From positions 248,001 through 312,000 of the forward strand of contig NZ_JAUXYL010000007.1 of the NCBI RefSeq assembly GCF_030694375.1: a DNA stretch of 64,000 bases, read 5' to 3'. A model generated the notes under the pieces. The model was given only the letters and a program-made list of their open reading frames with translations, ran no database searches and was not told the origin of the DNA. A program made the position numbers and the translations under genes. This document shows, piece after piece, positions 22,765-51,139 of the stretch. The number at the start of each line of letters is the position of its first letter. Position 1 is the first letter of the stretch. Origin of the DNA: Algoriphagus sp. GTDB lineage: Bacteria; Bacteroidota; Bacteroidia; Cytophagales; Cyclobacteriaceae.

Positions 22765-23133
22765 TCATTGTTCATTGCTTAGGTTTTTTCTCGCACTAGT
22801 AATTATTCTACCAAATATTGCAGAAAGTTCTTCTGACTCCTTCAACAGCTCGGTTCTAATAAGGAGATCACCCAACTCGGAATATGCTAAAATTTTTAAT
22901 GTTGAACGGGACTCTTTGAGTTCCTTCAATACAATCCCATTCTTATGGATGAAATCTTTTTTACTTTCAACTCCTTGGGCCTCTCCATAATTCAAGCAAG
23001 CTCCGCAGGCTGACCTAATTAACTGTTCTCTGAGATGGCTTTCTCCAAACGTATTTCCCACTGTGCTGCAATACTTGATGCAATCTCCTGCAAATCTGAC
23101 TAGCCGTTCTTCTAAATCATATCTTTTATCCAT
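22765..23133 (-). CDS. Four-helix-bundle protein of the S23 / 23S-rRNA intervening-sequence family
   Basis: 122 residues from ATG 23133 (longer frame starts with TTG). Hallmarks: YDLEERLVRFAGDCIKYC, the RSACGACLNYGEAQGVESKKDFIHKNGIVLKELKES block split by short turns, and LLKESEELSAIFGRIITSARK; all helical. The family was first seen inside 23S rRNA intervening sequences but is widespread as free-standing genes with unknown role. Here no rRNA is present. Both flanks carry TCAATT-type arrays, the left one entering the coding end. Probably a small independent cassette. Confidence 0.88.
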   Translation of the reverse strand: MDKRYDLEERLVRFAGDCIKYCSTVGNTFGESHLREQLIRSACGACLNYGEAQGVESKKDFIHKNGIVLKELKESRSTLKILAYSELGDLLIRTELLKESEELSAIFGRIITSARKNLSNEQ

Positions 23134-23140
23134 AGCGAGT

Positions 23141-23216
23141 AAATTATCAATGAACAATTTTCAACTCAAAGATCAAGTAAAATCCAACCTGTGAATTGAA
23201 AATTGATCATTGTCAT
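23141..23216. repeat. TCAAT / ATTGA arrays, right of S23 gene
   Basis: AAATTATCAATGAACAATTTTCAACTC at 23141-23167 and GAATTGAAAATTGATCATTG at 23193-23212, reaching the stop of the XRE regulator. They resemble the left-hand array in both orientations. Confidence 0.55.
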
Positions 23217-23908
23217 ACCATCGCCAGCCGATACCTCCACACTTCTCTGACCTGCTCTGCTTCTACTTCAAACGGGGCGTAGATCGGATTGGCTGAGCAA
23301 AGCAGCAATTTTTGTTCGTCTTTGATCTTATTGTAAGCGATCTTAAACGTGACGCCATCCTGCTCGGTGACGATTACATAGCGCTCGCCGTCTTTGATGG
23401 CCATCCAGTCATCCACATATTCACAGACGATCCAAGCCCCATCGGGGATCGGCAGCATCGAGTCGCCATCCACCTGGAACACCCGGTGCTTTTTGTCCAT
23501 CGGGAGAAAAGGCAAAGCAAAGCGCGGCAACTCAGCAATAAACTCCGGATCGGAAAACCCCGCCAAGTAACTCGCCTTGACCTTTTGCGAGACCACCTCG
23601 ATCAGTTCTCTACCTTGCTCATCGACTGTAGTCGCCAAAATGCGGAGCTTTCGCCCGCGCAGAAACTGATCCGTCTCCAGGAGTTCGCGGAGTTTGAATT
23701 CAGAATAAGATGCAAGATCTTCTTTGATTAAAGTATCTATAGAAACACTAAAGTTCTCCGCTATGCGGACGATCACGTCAAGCGACGGCGAAATGGTCAG
23801 TTCATATCCCGCAAGTTTAGATCGGGAGATCATTAATCTCTCAGCCAATGCTTCCTGAGTCAATCCCTTCTTTTTTCTTAAAATCTTAATGTTTGAGTGG
23901 AGATACAT
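23213..23908 (-). CDS. LexA-like XRE regulator with S24 peptidase domain
   Basis: 231 residues from ATG 23908. Residues 4-58 are an XRE helix-turn-helix (LTQEALAERLMISRSKLAGYE). Residues ~110-229 form an S24 peptidase-like domain with Ser140 in DGDSMLP and Lys179 in TFKIA, the LexA/UmuD dyad. An Ala-Gly pair (116-117, SYLAGF) precedes Ser140 by only 23 residues; in E. coli LexA that distance is ~35, so self-cleavage there is doubtful. Divergent from dinB with a shared 111-base region containing repeats, so it is most likely the repressor of dinB. Confidence 0.85.
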   Translation of the reverse strand: MYLHSNIKILRKKKGLTQEALAERLMISRSKLAGYELTISPSLDVIVRIAENFSVSIDTLIKEDLASYSEFKLRELLETDQFLRGRKLRILATTVDEQGRELIEVVSQKVKASYLAGFSDPEFIAELPRFALPFLPMDKKHRVFQVDGDSMLPIPDGAWIVCEYVDDWMAIKDGERYVIVTEQDGVTFKIAYNKIKDEQKLLLCSANPIYAPFEVEAEQVREVWRYRLAMV

Positions 23909-23957
23909 AAGCAATAAAGTAAGACAGCTTCGGTCAATCTTTTGAAATTCAAGAAAC

Positions 23958-23965
23958 CAAAGTTA
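23958..23965 (-). promoter_or_regulatory. Candidate -7 box for the XRE regulator
   Basis: TAACTTTG on the minus strand matches TAnnTTTG, ~50 bases before the start at 23908. The -33 position falls inside the TATAGAC operator repeats instead of a TTTG, consistent with autoregulation. Confidence 0.5.
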
Positions 23966-23981
23966 TTCTTTTTGTTTAATT

Positions 23982-24013
23982 TATAGACTAATAATTGTCA
24001 ATAATATAGACAA
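23982..24013. promoter_or_regulatory. Candidate operator between XRE regulator and dinB
   Basis: Two direct TATAGAC sites (23982-23988, 24005-24011; 23 apart) with an opposing TTGTC between them (23995-23999). TTGTC-N9-GACAA is an inverted repeat. The right site abuts AAAGG just before the dinB start, so binding would block dinB. Confidence 0.55.
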
Positions 24014-24019
24014 AAGGTC

Positions 24020-25210
24020 ATGGAAGGGAAGCGGAATATCGTGCATATGGATTTGGACACGTTTTTTGTGTCAGTGGAGCGGCTTTTTGACAGCAGGCTG
24101 AATGGCAAACCTATCCTCATCGGGGGCTCCGGCGACCGGGGAGTGGTGGCCTCGTGCAGCTATGAGGCTCGGAAGTTTGGAGTGCACTCGGCCATGCCGA
24201 TGCGGATGGCCCGGCAACTCTGTCCTGAAGCCATACTCGTGCGAGGGGATTTTGAGAAATACAGCCAAAAATCCCACGAAGTCACCGAGATCATTCGGGA
24301 GAGTGTCCCAATCTTTGAGAAATCTTCCGTGGATGAATTCTACATCGATCTCACGGGGATGGACCGCTTCTTTGGTTGCTTCAAGCTGGCCCATGAGCTC
24401 CGCCAAAAAATTATCAAACAAAGCGGTCTGAACATCTCTATGGGACTCTCGGAGAATAAAACCGTCTCCAAAGTCGCCACTGGCGAAGCCAAGCCCAACA
24501 ACGAAAAGCAGATTCCATTCGGTCAGGAAAAACCCTTTCTCGCCCCACTATCCGTGCGCAAAATTCCCATGATCGGCGAAAAAACCTCCCAAACGCTCTA
24601 CAACATGGGCGTCAAAAAAGTCCATACCCTGCAGCAGATGCCTGCCGAACTGCTGGAAGCAACTTTCGGGAAAAACGGAACCATGATCTGGGAAAAAGCC
24701 AACGGAATCGACCGATCCTTGGTCACTCCCTATTCTGAGGCTAAGTCAATCTCTTCCGAAAACACCTTCGAGCAGGACACCATCGATGTCAAGATGCTGG
24801 AGGCTACGATGACGGCCATGACTGAGCAGCTCGCCTCCAAACTCCGTCAAAAAGGGCAGCTCTCCGCCTGCGTGAGTGTGAAGATCCGCTACTCGGACTT
24901 TGAGACACATACCGTGCAGCAGCGTATTCCCTATACTTCGGCGGACCATACGCTCCTGCCTGTGGTGAAGGCACTCTTTCATAAACTATACAGCAGACGA
25001 ATGCTGATCCGGCTGATCGGCGTGCGCTTCAGTTCGCTGGTCTATGGCAACTATCAGATCAAGCTCTTCGAAGACAGTCAGGAACAGATCAATCTCTATC
25101 AGGCACTCGACAAATTGAATGTCAAATACGGAGATAAAACCGTCTGTCGGGCCGTCGCCATGGGTGTGGGAAGAAGGAGATTTAATCCGTTTAATGGGAT
25201 GGAGGTTTGA
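24020..25210 (+). CDS. dinB: DNA polymerase IV (Y-family)
   Basis: 396 residues. Catalytic acidic residues: Asp11/Asp13 in HMDLDTFF and Asp104-Glu105 in SSVDEFYID. Steric-gate region FVSVER, SYEARKFGVHSAMP finger, helix-hairpin-helix PMIGEKTSQTLYNMGVKKVHTL, little-finger domain to ~375. The C-terminus ends FNPFNGMEV; I see no clear beta-clamp QLxLF tail, although the clamp peptide may be degenerate. Codon usage is more GC-rich than its neighbours. Probably under the divergent LexA-like repressor. Its last ~105 bases recur twice downstream. Confidence 0.95.
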   Translation: MEGKRNIVHMDLDTFFVSVERLFDSRLNGKPILIGGSGDRGVVASCSYEARKFGVHSAMPMRMARQLCPEAILVRGDFEKYSQKSHEVTEIIRESVPIFEKSSVDEFYIDLTGMDRFFGCFKLAHELRQKIIKQSGLNISMGLSENKTVSKVATGEAKPNNEKQIPFGQEKPFLAPLSVRKIPMIGEKTSQTLYNMGVKKVHTLQQMPAELLEATFGKNGTMIWEKANGIDRSLVTPYSEAKSISSENTFEQDTIDVKMLEATMTAMTEQLASKLRQKGQLSACVSVKIRYSDFETHTVQQRIPYTSADHTLLPVVKALFHKLYSRRMLIRLIGVRFSSLVYGNYQIKLFEDSQEQINLYQALDKLNVKYGDKTVCRAVAMGVGRRRFNPFNGMEV

Positions 25211-25220
25211 AAATCCAAAA

Positions 25221-25249
25221 AAGTTGCCTCAAAAAAATAGAGGCAACTT
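25221..25249 (-). terminator. Hairpin between dinB and the 94-residue gene
   Basis: Perfect 10-bp stem AAGTTGCCTC / GAGGCAACTT with a 9-base loop. T6 follows on the minus strand, so it best serves the gene ending at 25267; for dinB it lacks a T-run. Confidence 0.8.
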
Positions 25250-25266
25250 CTAGCCGATATACCTAC

Positions 25267-25551
25267 CTAGGATCTTAAAATAAAGATGATGAAGATCAGG
25301 ATATTAAGTGTGTATTGGCTGATAATTTTCGATTTGAAAGAAGTATCCAAATCAAAAAAAGAAGAGGGATTTATGGCCCGTCTAAACTGAACTGTCATAA
25401 ATATCAGATTAAAACCAACCAAGACACCGAGCACTATTTCAGATAAATTGAATTTAGGAATTATCCAGAAAAGAGCACTAGAAATTATATATACTCCTAC
25501 CGTAAGAACAGATACTTTCGCCAGTGCTTTTTTTAGCTTATTACTATTCAT
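25267..25551 (-). CDS. Small three-helix membrane protein, unknown
   Basis: 94 residues. Hydrophobic helices at ~12-31, ~36-54 and ~75-92, a basic N-terminus (NSNKLKKALAK) and a short charged loop (RRAINPSS...SFKSK). No family recognised. It sits between dinB and the first decayed dinB 3'-end copy, on the opposite strand, AT-rich compared with dinB. A terminator follows. Real gene status rests on the regular start, helices and terminator. Confidence 0.55.
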   Translation of the reverse strand: MNSNKLKKALAKVSVLTVGVYIISSALFWIIPKFNLSEIVLGVLVGFNLIFMTVQFRRAINPSSFFDLDTSFKSKIISQYTLNILIFIIFILRS

Positions 25552-25617
25552 ATGAACTCATTTAACACATTTAGAAAATTCATAGACCATGAATCCTACA
25601 CCAATCCATCCTGTATC

Positions 25618-25734
25618 CTCTTTCAAGCAATCAAAAGCCGAGTGTCAAACACGGCGACAAAACCGTCTGCCGTGCCGCCGCCGTGGGCGTAAGAAGACGA
25701 CGGTTTAATCCGTTTAATGGTTGGAGGAGGTGTA
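25618..25734 (+). pseudogene. Decayed copy 1 of the dinB 3' end
   Basis: Aligns with dinB 25094-25202. Encodes LFQAI..., then after a 1-base deletion KHGDKTVCRAAAVGV-RRRRFNPFNG, against LYQAL...KYGDKTVCRAVAMGVGRRRFNPFNG in dinB. A 17-base stretch TTTAATCCGTTTAATGG is identical to dinB. The dinB reading frame then diverges with no stop at the equivalent place. Confidence 0.8.
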
Positions 25735-25776
25735 GGGGTGACACCACTTGTGGCACCACCTATCTAAATATAAAAA

Positions 25777-25935
25777 TCACAAAAATTTACCTAAGATAAG
25801 CACCACAAATAGAACTACTAAAGCTATCGAAGTGTAAGGAATCTTTTTTCCATCCTTCCTTCTTTCATAAATTTCATAGAAAGAAAGTAAAAGCCCAACA
25901 CTGAATAAGATTAGTTTAAATGTTTCCCAAGTCAT
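25777..25935 (-). CDS. Small two-helix membrane protein, unknown
   Basis: 52 residues, ATG 25935 to TGA 25777. Starts MTWETFKLILFSVGLLLSFY, then a basic loop YERRKDGKKIPY, then a second helix TSIALVVLFVVLILGKF. Hairpin membrane topology with a cytosolic-type charged loop. It lies between the two dinB 3'-end copies on the opposite strand, just as the 94-residue gene lies between dinB and copy 1. No family recognised. Confidence 0.45.
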   Translation of the reverse strand: MTWETFKLILFSVGLLLSFYEIYERRKDGKKIPYTSIALVVLFVVLILGKFL

Positions 25936-26109
25936 AGTTTTTCTGTATCCAACCCATATTAAGCTTCATTTTCGTGAAACGAAAATATAATTAGATCAAA
26001 CGGTTATCAAGGGGTCAAATGAAATTTTTAGCGAAAAACTAATCAACTGCCATAAAACAAGTATTAATGGCCAAATTTTGAAAATGAAAGTAGTAACCAA
26101 CCCACAGAC

Positions 26110-26214
26110 CTCGATAAGCTGAATATGAAATACGGCGACAAAACCGTCTGCCGTGCCGCCGCCGTGAGCGTGGGAAGACGACGGTTTAACCAATTTAACG
26201 GGATGGAGGTGTGA
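26110..26214 (+). pseudogene. Copy 2 of the dinB 3' end
   Basis: Exactly 105 bases, same length as the last 105 of dinB (25106-25210), with the stop codon kept. Encodes LDKLNMKYGDKTVCRAAAVS then VGRRRFNQFNGMEV; 30 of 35 codons give the same residue (stop included). Synonymous sites match copy 1 more than dinB (GGCGAC, TGCCGTGCCGCCGCCGTG). Confidence 0.85.
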
Positions 26215-26390
26215 TGGAAAGGGTTTATAATTGGTCAATCAAAGCATGGGGATTTTTTACAGTTTAGGAATGTGATTACTAGATTGTAAAATCAACTCCA
26301 GGAAAACCAAAAATGTAAACTCTCAATCGTAACCGAAATTAAACATGTAAATTCTCGATTACGATCGATAAATTACAGATTTCACACCAA

Positions 26391-26921
26391 ATGAACCACT
26401 ATCTCTTCACCACTTCCAGACTCGGTTTTCGCACTTGGCAGTCCTTTGACTTGGATGATTTTGCGGCAATCAACTCAGACCCGGAGGTGATGCGCTTCTT
26501 CCAAAAACCGCTTTCCCGGGAGGAAACCCAAGCCATGATGGATCGCATGCAGCGAATGTATGAGGAACGAGGCTATTGCTATTTCGCAGTGGATTTATTG
26601 GAAACAAAGGAGTTGATCGGTACGATTGGGATGGGTTGGAAGACTTTTGAATCGGATTTCACTCCTTGTGTGGATATCGGCTGGAGGATAGGTAAAACGT
26701 GGTGGAATCGAGGCTTGGCTTCAGAGGGTGCTTTGGCTTGCCTGAGCTTTGCTCAGCAAAACCAAATCACCGAAGTGGTATCTATGGCATCCATCGGCAA
26801 TACGGCTTCAATCCAGGTGATGAAAAAGATTGGAATGGACTTTTGGAAGGAATTTGATCACTCCGAACTCAAAAACTTTCCGGACATTCAGCGCTGCAGC
26901 TTGTATCGGATAACTTTTTGA
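26391..26921 (+). CDS. GNAT acetyltransferase, RimJ/RimL type
   Basis: 176 residues. LGFRTWQSFDLDDFAAINSDPEVMRFF is the standard RimJ/RimL opening; WNRGLASEGALACLSFA is the acetyl-CoA site and SMASIGNTASIQVMKKIGM the C-terminal motif. Acceptor unknown. Upstream are two imperfect repeats ATGTAAAyTCTCrAT (26313 and 26345). Confidence 0.9.
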   Translation: MNHYLFTTSRLGFRTWQSFDLDDFAAINSDPEVMRFFQKPLSREETQAMMDRMQRMYEERGYCYFAVDLLETKELIGTIGMGWKTFESDFTPCVDIGWRIGKTWWNRGLASEGALACLSFAQQNQITEVVSMASIGNTASIQVMKKIGMDFWKEFDHSELKNFPDIQRCSLYRITF

Positions 26922-50491: not shown

Positions 50492-51139
50492 TTAGGAATG
50501 TACAGACCTACTTTGCTTATGAAGAGCGGTGATGCTCGAAGCCAAGTTTCGATAGTAGATGTAAGTCCGTTTTTGAGATCTTTTAACCCTATATTTTTTC
50601 GAAGCTTGTTCGTAGAAATACGAGTCCGCAGAATATCTGTTTTCGAAGTGGATACTTTTAAAAACTTCCTTTTTGCCAAAAAGTGTGGCAAAAAGAATGC
50701 AGTCATCCACATGGATATTTTTGTGAAGATCATGCTTATCCACCACATAGTAATCTTCGTTACTAGACACGACCGTCTCAGTGAGAGAGGAAATCAAGTC
50801 AGCGAATTCCATTTCATGAAGACAGGAAGATAGATGGTTGGGCTTGTATTCATCATCTGCATCGATGATTGTGATGTATTCACCCTTGGCAAAATGAACC
50901 GCTCGATTGATGGCAAAAGACTGACCTTGGTTTTTGCTGCGGATATAGCTGATTTTATCCTCGTGATTTATGGAATATTGTATCAAGGATTGACTGAGCT
51001 CCAGACCACTTCCATCGTCAACCAACAACAATTCAAAATCTTTGAAATCTTGATCCATGACTGAATCAAGGGCTCTTTTTACCAATTCAAATGGGGTATT
51101 AAAAACCGCCATCAACACACTCACCTTCACTTTTGACAT
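50492..51139 (-). CDS. Glycosyltransferase family 2
   Basis: 215 residues. GT2 hallmarks: VSVLMAVFNTPFELVKRALDSVMDQDF, LLLVDDGSG, the D-x-D in TIIDADDEYKPNH, and KNQGQSFAINRA. Shorter than typical GT2s with no C-terminal membrane helices, so a soluble enzyme. Donor and acceptor unknown. Confidence 0.88.
   Translation of the reverse strand: MSKVKVSVLMAVFNTPFELVKRALDSVMDQDFKDFELLLVDDGSGLELSQSLIQYSINHEDKISYIRSKNQGQSFAINRAVHFAKGEYITIIDADDEYKPNHLSSCLHEMEFADLISSLTETVVSSNEDYYVVDKHDLHKNIHVDDCILFATLFGKKEVFKSIHFENRYSADSYFYEQASKKYRVKRSQKRTYIYYRNLASSITALHKQSRSVHS

Follow-up and report, generated by a model that had tools for sequence, protein, structure and literature searches.

The dinB locus and the copies of its 3' end

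The dinB locus of Algoriphagus sp. (RefSeq assembly GCF_030694375.1) lies in a stretch of 64,000 nucleotides (nt) of contig NZ_JAUXYL010000007.1, here called the window, and the end of the gene is followed by two small membrane-protein genes and two further copies of that end. The gene itself (24020..25210, plus strand) encodes a Y-family DNA polymerase IV and is intact, as the product is full length (396 amino acids, aa) and matches Pfam IMS (5e-46) and IMS_C (2e-25). Its 3' end (25106..25210, plus strand), which is probably a docking site for transferred gene cassettes, serves as the reference copy of the repeat. A 10-bp perfect hairpin, AAGTTGCCTC/GAGGCAACTT, read from the sequence at 25221..25249, stands between dinB and the first cargo gene. 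This gene, mem94 (25267..25551, minus strand), encodes 94 aa with three predicted transmembrane (TM) segments and is followed by copy 2 of the dinB end (25617..25734, plus strand), which is decayed and frameshifted. The second cargo gene, mem52 (25777..25935, minus strand), encodes 52 aa with one TM segment predicted by simple hydropathy; like the mem94 product, it is a putative orphan immunity protein. Copy 3 (26108..26214, plus strand) is the outermost displaced dinB end and retains its stop codon. It is followed by the original downstream flank of dinB (26215..26390, plus strand) and by the ancestral right neighbour of dinB, a GNAT acetyltransferase gene (26391..26921, plus strand; Pfam Acetyltransf_3). 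The conserved left neighbour, divergent from dinB, is an S24/LexA-like repressor gene (23213..23914, minus strand; Pfam HTH_3 and Peptidase_S24).

A first-pass annotation of the window had claimed that the last 105 nt of dinB recur at 26110-26214 with the stop codon retained, that a shorter frameshifted copy lies near 25618-25734, and that the two gaps hold minus-strand open reading frames (ORFs) of 94 and 52 residues. All of these features are present. A repeat search returned one 105-nt direct-repeat family comprising 25106-25210, 25629-25733 (70%) and 26110-26214 (79%). BLAST with the last 180 nt of dinB found two significant downstream copies (E 2.7e-22 and 1.4e-19), and a profile built from 39 dinB ends placed the copies at 25617-25727 and 26108-26213. 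As the annotation had also noticed, the copies are more alike than either is to dinB: copies 2 and 3 are 88.0% identical (73/83), and their identities to dinB are 82.7% (67/81) and 79.8% (67/84). The sequence GTGCCGCCGCCGTG is present in both copies and elsewhere only in the remnant of one relative (locus L032); it is found in 0/110 functional dinB ends, that of the window included. Since this derived signature is common to copies 2 and 3 and absent from functional ends, copy 2 most probably derives from copy 3, the end already displaced, and does not represent a separate, older functional dinB end. It was perhaps made at the entry of mem52.

Displaced gene ends and empty sites in relatives

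The locus was compared with relatives in a genus sample of 72 genomes, of which 50 have a DNA-level match to the dinB 3' end (a first genus search had given a dinB-family match in all 59 genomes), and in a set of 110 distinct dinB loci; the named relatives are A. litoralis (98%) and A. boritolerans (97%). The ancestral order is the S24 repressor gene, dinB, the GNAT gene and two ferritin-like genes, the last recognised by eye. Of 41 regions, 39 have a match to the repressor gene upstream of dinB and two extend less than 1.4 kb in that direction, and the GNAT gene lies downstream of dinB in 36 of 70 listed loci. Nineteen of these 36 sites are empty, with 71-198 nt to the GNAT match, and 17 are occupied, with 312 nt to 11.4 kb. 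Copies of the dinB tail are found in 12 of the 110 loci, eleven of Algoriphagus type and one (L147) from a distant Crocinitomix metagenome bin, the cargo of which is a ParE/ParD-type pair. At L076 the repeats are long and intact (93%). Two large inserts downstream of dinB (L048 and L065) hold what we take by eye to be a LysR-type regulator, a membrane subunit and a large DUF2309-like protein. The window also contains a 23S ribosomal RNA IVP-type four-helix gene at 22765-23157 with an inverted repeat alongside (23148-23171/23189-23212), and this gene was unmatched in the dinB regions of the relatives compared.

Immediately behind its dinB stop codon, the empty-site sister A. litoralis (L072) has a sequence that matches the flank after the outermost copy in the window (78.1% over 128 columns, E 4e-24, using the first 130 nt of the window flank) and the flank after the outermost copy in L032 (79.7% over 128 columns, E 8e-27). 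With this A. litoralis flank, the stretch behind the functional dinB of the window gave no match. Together with the empty sites, these flanks identify the downstream copies as displaced dinB ends. In L032 the displaced end is identical to copy 3 at 84/84 nt and the cargo is different, a DUF4160/DUF2442 pair. The 100% identity itself was considered as a special feature and set aside, as identity varies from 77 to 100% along the locus. The suggestion of the first-pass annotation that an older dinB end had been displaced is upheld by the empty sites and the native-type tails found downstream, with the refinement that copy 2 is most likely no separate functional end. Its proposal of repeated insertion at one point agrees with the empty sites of relatives and with the different cargo behind an identical displaced end in the window and L032. 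The three copies are not carried by all relatives, and the repeats are statistically significant.

Local tandem duplication followed by decay, in which dinB or its end would have been duplicated within the chromosome without any transfer and small genes would have originated or landed between the copies, could account for the signature of copies 2 and 3, which may be mutual duplicates. This explanation is highly improbable given that native flank lies behind the outer copy, that sister sites are empty and that in several pairs the identity of the cargo between species does not follow that of dinB (see below). In addition, apart from its last 250 nt, no portion of dinB has a copy beside the gene in the 110 loci (0/110 at E<=1e-3), and duplication of the full-length gene was rejected on this ground.

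Foreign-like gene ends

In two loci, L087 and L160, a foreign-like tail of ~40 nt completes the functional dinB, and a native-type tail lies 1.5 kb downstream. The flank behind this remnant matches the post-dinB flank of an empty sister locus, L067 (90.6% over 127 nt for L087 and 91.6% over 107 nt for L160). Compared with L067, the final 40 nt of the remnants show 1/40 (L087) and 4/40 (L160) differences and those of both functional tails 12/40, whereas in the 60 nt just upstream of the tail the functional genes differ at 2/60 (L087) and 4/60 (L160). The contrast for the L087 tail has a Fisher p of 0.0015, and it holds in a gapped alignment of the last 60 nt to L067 (remnant 94.9%, own dinB 83.9%). 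The functional tails of L087 and L160 show 0/40 differences from each other, and that of L087 shows 1/40 from L057 and 4/40 from L033 and L039. The tail common to L087, L160 and L057 is nearer to other Algoriphagus than to the sisters of its carriers, and all three loci share mem94. Foreign-like tails can be recognised in two or three genomes by these comparisons. As a foreign-like functional tail is combined with a native displaced one, the gene end of L087 and L160 seems to be of outside origin and the native end to have moved outward.

A hybrid tail is seen at the empty site of L061, where dinB is donor-like until ~15 nt before the stop codon and then has the native LEN ending. It is possibly the scar of a lost cassette.

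The main rival explanation of the loci is strict long target duplication, in which cargo free of dinB sequence inserts close to the 3' end and duplicates 30-175 bp of the recipient gene, leaving two native copies. Long, variable direct repeats around transposase-less cargo and an empty allele in relatives are what such a process would leave. Two observations speak against it: the functional tail in L087 (and less strongly in L160) is foreign-like and is also found in a second carrier of a cassette, the displaced tail being native, and the repeats mostly end at the stop codon and not at random points downstream. We consider strict duplication unlikely, and the arrival of dinB ends together with transferred cassettes remains the preferred reading.

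Cargo genes

The cargo of the 11 tail-bearing loci consists of either a DhiT/DhiA-like pair or a lipoprotein with two cysteines in a C-x52-56-C arrangement accompanied by a small membrane protein. Pfam searches of 29 cargo ORFs from the 11 tail-bearing dinB loci revealed no integrase, transposase or recombinase and matched only DUF4160, DUF2442 and DUF4221; the scan covered the cargo other than two listed ORFs that overlap remnants and the inserts that have no tail copy. The same 29 ORFs gave no hit in a PADLOC scan, no restriction-modification gene by Pfam and no integron integrase (attC sites were not searched for), and the three PHROGs families matched are all without annotated function. 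For the window, the first-pass annotation had reported no integrase or transposase, and this agrees with the lack of any Pfam match at E<=0.001 for mem94 and mem52, the scan having passed over a few other small gap ORFs.

A site-specific integrative element, with an integrase acting in trans at an att site so as to restore the dinB 3' end, would give the same topology, as a restored end at one border and a displaced end at the other resemble attL and attR. In some cassettes the junction is also constant in different species (L041 r2 and L043; L063 and L065). The absence of any integrase or recombinase from the cargo ORFs scanned and of a function for the PHROGs matches argues against such an element, as does the lack of a fixed crossover core: the starts of the remnants, as judged from local alignment ends, are spread over profile positions 128 to 259 (of 303). 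The element is an improbable explanation.

The cassette of L032, L043 and L076 is a DUF4160 plus DUF2442 pair with scores that reach the Pfam cut-offs; they stay below the NCBIfam equivalog cut-offs (85.5 of 100 bits for DhiT and 20.6 of 200 bits for DhiA). The second cargo type belongs to a lipoprotein family, mostly of 210-250 aa, that was found in 15 of 390 genomes of the bacterial family and in several genera (loci L195-L208). All 19 lipoprotein-family loci encode two C-terminal cysteines 52-56 residues apart and have a small ORF next on the same strand, and a membrane segment is predicted in this ORF in 18/19 by simple hydropathy; some of the 19 are near-identical, and L201, L204 and L207 are broken or truncated. 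The member in G052 has no clear lipobox in the frame read. Three lipoproteins that were scanned matched nothing in Pfam (E<=0.001) or NCBIfam (E<=0.1), and a lipoprotein profile matched no solved structure at E<=1.

The membrane-protein genes of the window belong with this second type. mem94 is present in 7 of 71 genus genomes and always at dinB, although in G044 it is broken by stop codons and one further weak match lies elsewhere in that genome. The partner lipoprotein gene adjoins mem94 in L073, L087 and L160 and is absent in the window. mem52 is present in 5 of 71 genus genomes, three times at dinB and twice behind htpG, and in L044 and G052 its homologues come after a gene of the lipoprotein family. 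The membrane gene has been kept without the lipoprotein twice in the window and once in G017. As the same is known of immunity genes, we call the membrane protein the putative immunity protein and the lipoprotein the putative toxin. The two apparently form a toxin and immunity pair by this analogy, and mem94 and mem52 of the window look like orphan immunity genes. The lipoprotein/membrane pairs look like a candidate bacteriocin-immunity family that has not been described before.

Probable transfer and stacking of cassettes

Cargo at dinB turns over, and its relationships are out of step with those of dinB in several pairs. Compared over the mem94 segment, the window and L044 are 84.0% identical (dinB 81.6%), and the window and its sister L073 74.3% (dinB 90.5%). 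Likewise, L043 and L076 are 92.2% identical in their toxin-antitoxin (TA) cassettes and 84.9% in dinB. In L044 an old dinB end, a hairpin identical to the one at 25221..25249 in the window and a mem94 homologue lie, in this order, 1.2 kb downstream, behind a newer cassette. This displaced unit has the arrangement that is now found at the functional dinB of the window. L041 holds three tail copies, two of which have an identical junction sequence.

The genome also carries the competence genes comEC and dprA; these families match 10 and 11 of 14 control genomes as well and are little informative.

Related scars at other genes

A scan for copies of gene 3' ends was applied to 1580 ORFs from 125 loci (2.02 Mb) and gave 23 hits, 12 of them at dinB; the loci were chosen for dinB or the lipoprotein family and provide a rough background and not a neutral sample. 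Hits in L063 (two beside its dinB hit), L198 (three), L197 and L037 were judged by eye to be tandem paralogues, low-complexity sequence or a trivial 16-nt match, and the hits at 50620 and 131856 in a scan of 365 ORFs of contig C10 of this genome are of the same types by eye. Control scans gave six hits in G404 (same order, 306 ORFs) and one in G032 (same genus, 309 ORFs); these include no clear isolated 3' copy and were judged by eye to be paralogues or weak. Applied to 5' ends, the scan found nothing in C10 (366 ORFs), a single hit in G404 and four hits in G032.

A site specific to dinB was rejected as an explanation, as the 3'-end scar also occurs at htpG (L208), glycosyltransferase (L200), DNA polymerase III alpha (L155), alpha/beta-hydrolase (L046), tsf and galM genes. 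The dinB gene stands as a recurrent site, as had been proposed, but it is not peculiar in this respect since similar cargo, in part from one and the same family, and the same scar are found elsewhere. In G052 a lipoprotein-family gene and mem52 lie between htpG and a copy of its end (36 nt, 88.9%). In G017 mem52 alone lies behind htpG, with a copy of the htpG end that by eye seems more decayed. The targets (htpG, glycosyltransferase, dnaE-type, tsf and galM genes) have unrelated ends, a further point against a site-specific integrative element.

Two scars lie elsewhere in the genome of the window and came to light in the scan of C10. At C10:394819-397000 (L227:2819-5000) the 3' end of tsf, which encodes EF-Ts, is copied 1.2 kb downstream, with two lipoprotein-like genes between the gene and the copied end. 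A. litoralis shares this insert and has a better end copy (91 nt, 81%). The site is empty in G016 and G068, where tsf and the flank lie together, and the flank is unmatched in G061. At C10:350000-353076 (L224:18000-20000) two TA-type pairs separate galM from a copy of its 3' end (73.8%, 80 nt); G058 is empty at this site, G016 has one module and this genome has two. The galM end copy lies inside the two-module insert and not at its outer border.

Some features of these loci speak for strict target duplication. Behind the glycosyltransferase gene of L200, the last 45 nt of the gene recur 100% identical after a lipoprotein-type pair; the copies in L155 agree for ~8 nt past the stop codon, the tsf terminator also appears duplicated, and in L205 the repeat is placed after the htpG stop. 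One cargo family is also found in opposite orientations at dinB and at htpG or the glycosyltransferase gene. In L155:11686-15500 an IS200-type Y1 transposase gene lies between two DNA polymerase III alpha 3' ends (123 nt, 94%), so that the cargo there does include a transposase domain, unlike the dinB cargo scanned. A palindromic CAAGTCTTCGGACTTG-like sequence lies nearby.

Proposed mechanism

We propose that transferred cassettes dock repeatedly at the dinB 3' end, by homology with one illegitimate joint, and then spread by ordinary recombination, and we give this reading a probability of about 70%. Incoming DNA from a relative would bring a dinB end with a cassette downstream of it. Pairing with the recipient dinB by homology would keep the gene intact, and a foreign tail may be received in the process. 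The other end of the cassette would join inside the recipient dinB end, in founding events by illegitimate recombination and in later spread by homology, with the outer dinB tail of the cassette as a second arm. The use of the outer tail as a second arm would explain both the identical junctions across species and the clean empty sites. The original tail and flank of the recipient would be pushed outward, where the tail decays, and direct copies of the dinB end would bracket each cassette. With such bracketing, cassettes could be stacked, exchanged or lost through ordinary recombination. Of the parts of this scheme, we infer the illegitimate joint, the dependence on RecA and the toxin and immunity functions.

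Several results weigh against this reading. No founding junction was caught among the loci compared, and 9 of the 17 occupied GNAT loci lack a detectable tail copy. Apart from L043-L076, the TA-cassette pairs (five of six) are about as far apart as dinB or further; in the pair L032-L043 the cassettes are 81.1% identical and dinB 83.2%, and the sharing could be old and vertical. The L160 remnant, which contains indels, is 82.8% identical to L067 in a gapped alignment and its own dinB is 83.9%, and gapped alignments to L059 and L055 give small or reversed differences, leaving L087 as the only locus that discriminates. In the window the functional tail is 86.9% and copy 3 85.7% identical to L072, values too close to resolve a foreign tail there. 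For the toxin assignment, the AlphaFold model of the lipoprotein had a predicted local distance difference test (pLDDT) score of 39 and was not used.

If correct, the scheme suggests a route by which small addiction or warfare genes could pass from one genome to another with no need of a transposase or integrase and with no damage to the host gene. Its signature, the 3' end of a gene repeated slightly downstream, can be used to find islands, empty sites and past cargo, and the movement of orphan TA and immunity genes becomes testable in an environmental genus. More tentatively, and with doubts that exceed our confidence, an integrase-free platform may exist in some Bacteroidota. Here the conserved 3' ends of housekeeping genes would be generic attachment sites used by RecA, and cassettes that capture such an end would become mobile units with homology arms, which enter any strain possessing the gene harmlessly, stack like integron cassettes and leave by recombination. 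TA and toxin-immunity genes might be the main cargo as such genes repay the cost of keeping them, and the gene tails, while they decay, would be a record of past weapons and immunities.

Comparison with known systems

A literature search, outside which most subscription papers fell, gave no recognised report of gene-end displacement at dinB. Displacement of gene ends as such is familiar from integrative elements: e14 and phage 21 integrate in icd, and phage or plasmid elements at tRNA genes or icd restore the end of the gene. As in e14 and phage 21, the element here supplies a replacement gene end and the old end is displaced. The dinB cassettes differ in that no integrase was found in the cargo scanned and no fixed core was seen, and the smallest cargo is ~0.5 kb.

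The cargo has its own parallels. The TA cassettes resemble DhiT/DhiA in being DUF4160 plus DUF2442 pairs and differ in scoring under the NCBIfam cut-offs. Fab1/Rfab1 of Bacteroides fragilis consists of a secreted antibacterial protein and a downstream immunity gene that is sometimes orphan, with a patchy distribution (PMC8406203). The orphan immunity-type gene in some strains and the patchy distribution are seen here as well, the function here being putative. Fab1 differs in being a ~50-kDa protein cleaved by fragipain, the lipoproteins described here being mostly of ~210-250 aa with the C-x52-56-C end.

Restriction-modification genes insert with long, variable target duplication (Nobusato 2000 and Furuta 2010, as cited in PMC3031569). 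The dinB loci share with these insertions, as far as the citing paper describes them, the long variable direct repeats, gene pairs of a selfish type, the lack of a transposase and the empty allele in relatives. They differ in that the cargo is not restriction-modification, in the recurrence and stacking at one site and in the completing gene end, which is foreign-looking in the two genomes tested here (L087 and, less strongly, L160).

A further parallel is the type VI secretion system (T6SS) of Vibrio cholerae, in which effector-immunity modules were inserted successively at a homologous anchor and old immunity genes persist as orphans behind the newest module (Kirchberger 2017, PMC5361080). 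Homology-facilitated illegitimate recombination was proposed for these immunity arrays, with spread by homologous recombination (PMC5361080). Successive modules at a homologous anchor are common to both systems, and the membrane genes kept here without a lipoprotein may correspond to the orphan immunity genes there. In V. cholerae the anchor is the upstream region of the effector module within a secretion cluster, whereas here it is the 3' end of a housekeeping gene, displaced gene ends mark the steps and the cargo includes ordinary TA pairs. The dinB site lies outside any T6SS, rearrangement hotspot (Rhs) or contact-dependent inhibition (CDI) cluster, with S24, GNAT and ferritin-like genes as neighbours. 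The scheme is best read as a variant of the known displacement schemes, in which cassettes without an integrase of their own settle at the 3' ends of genes.

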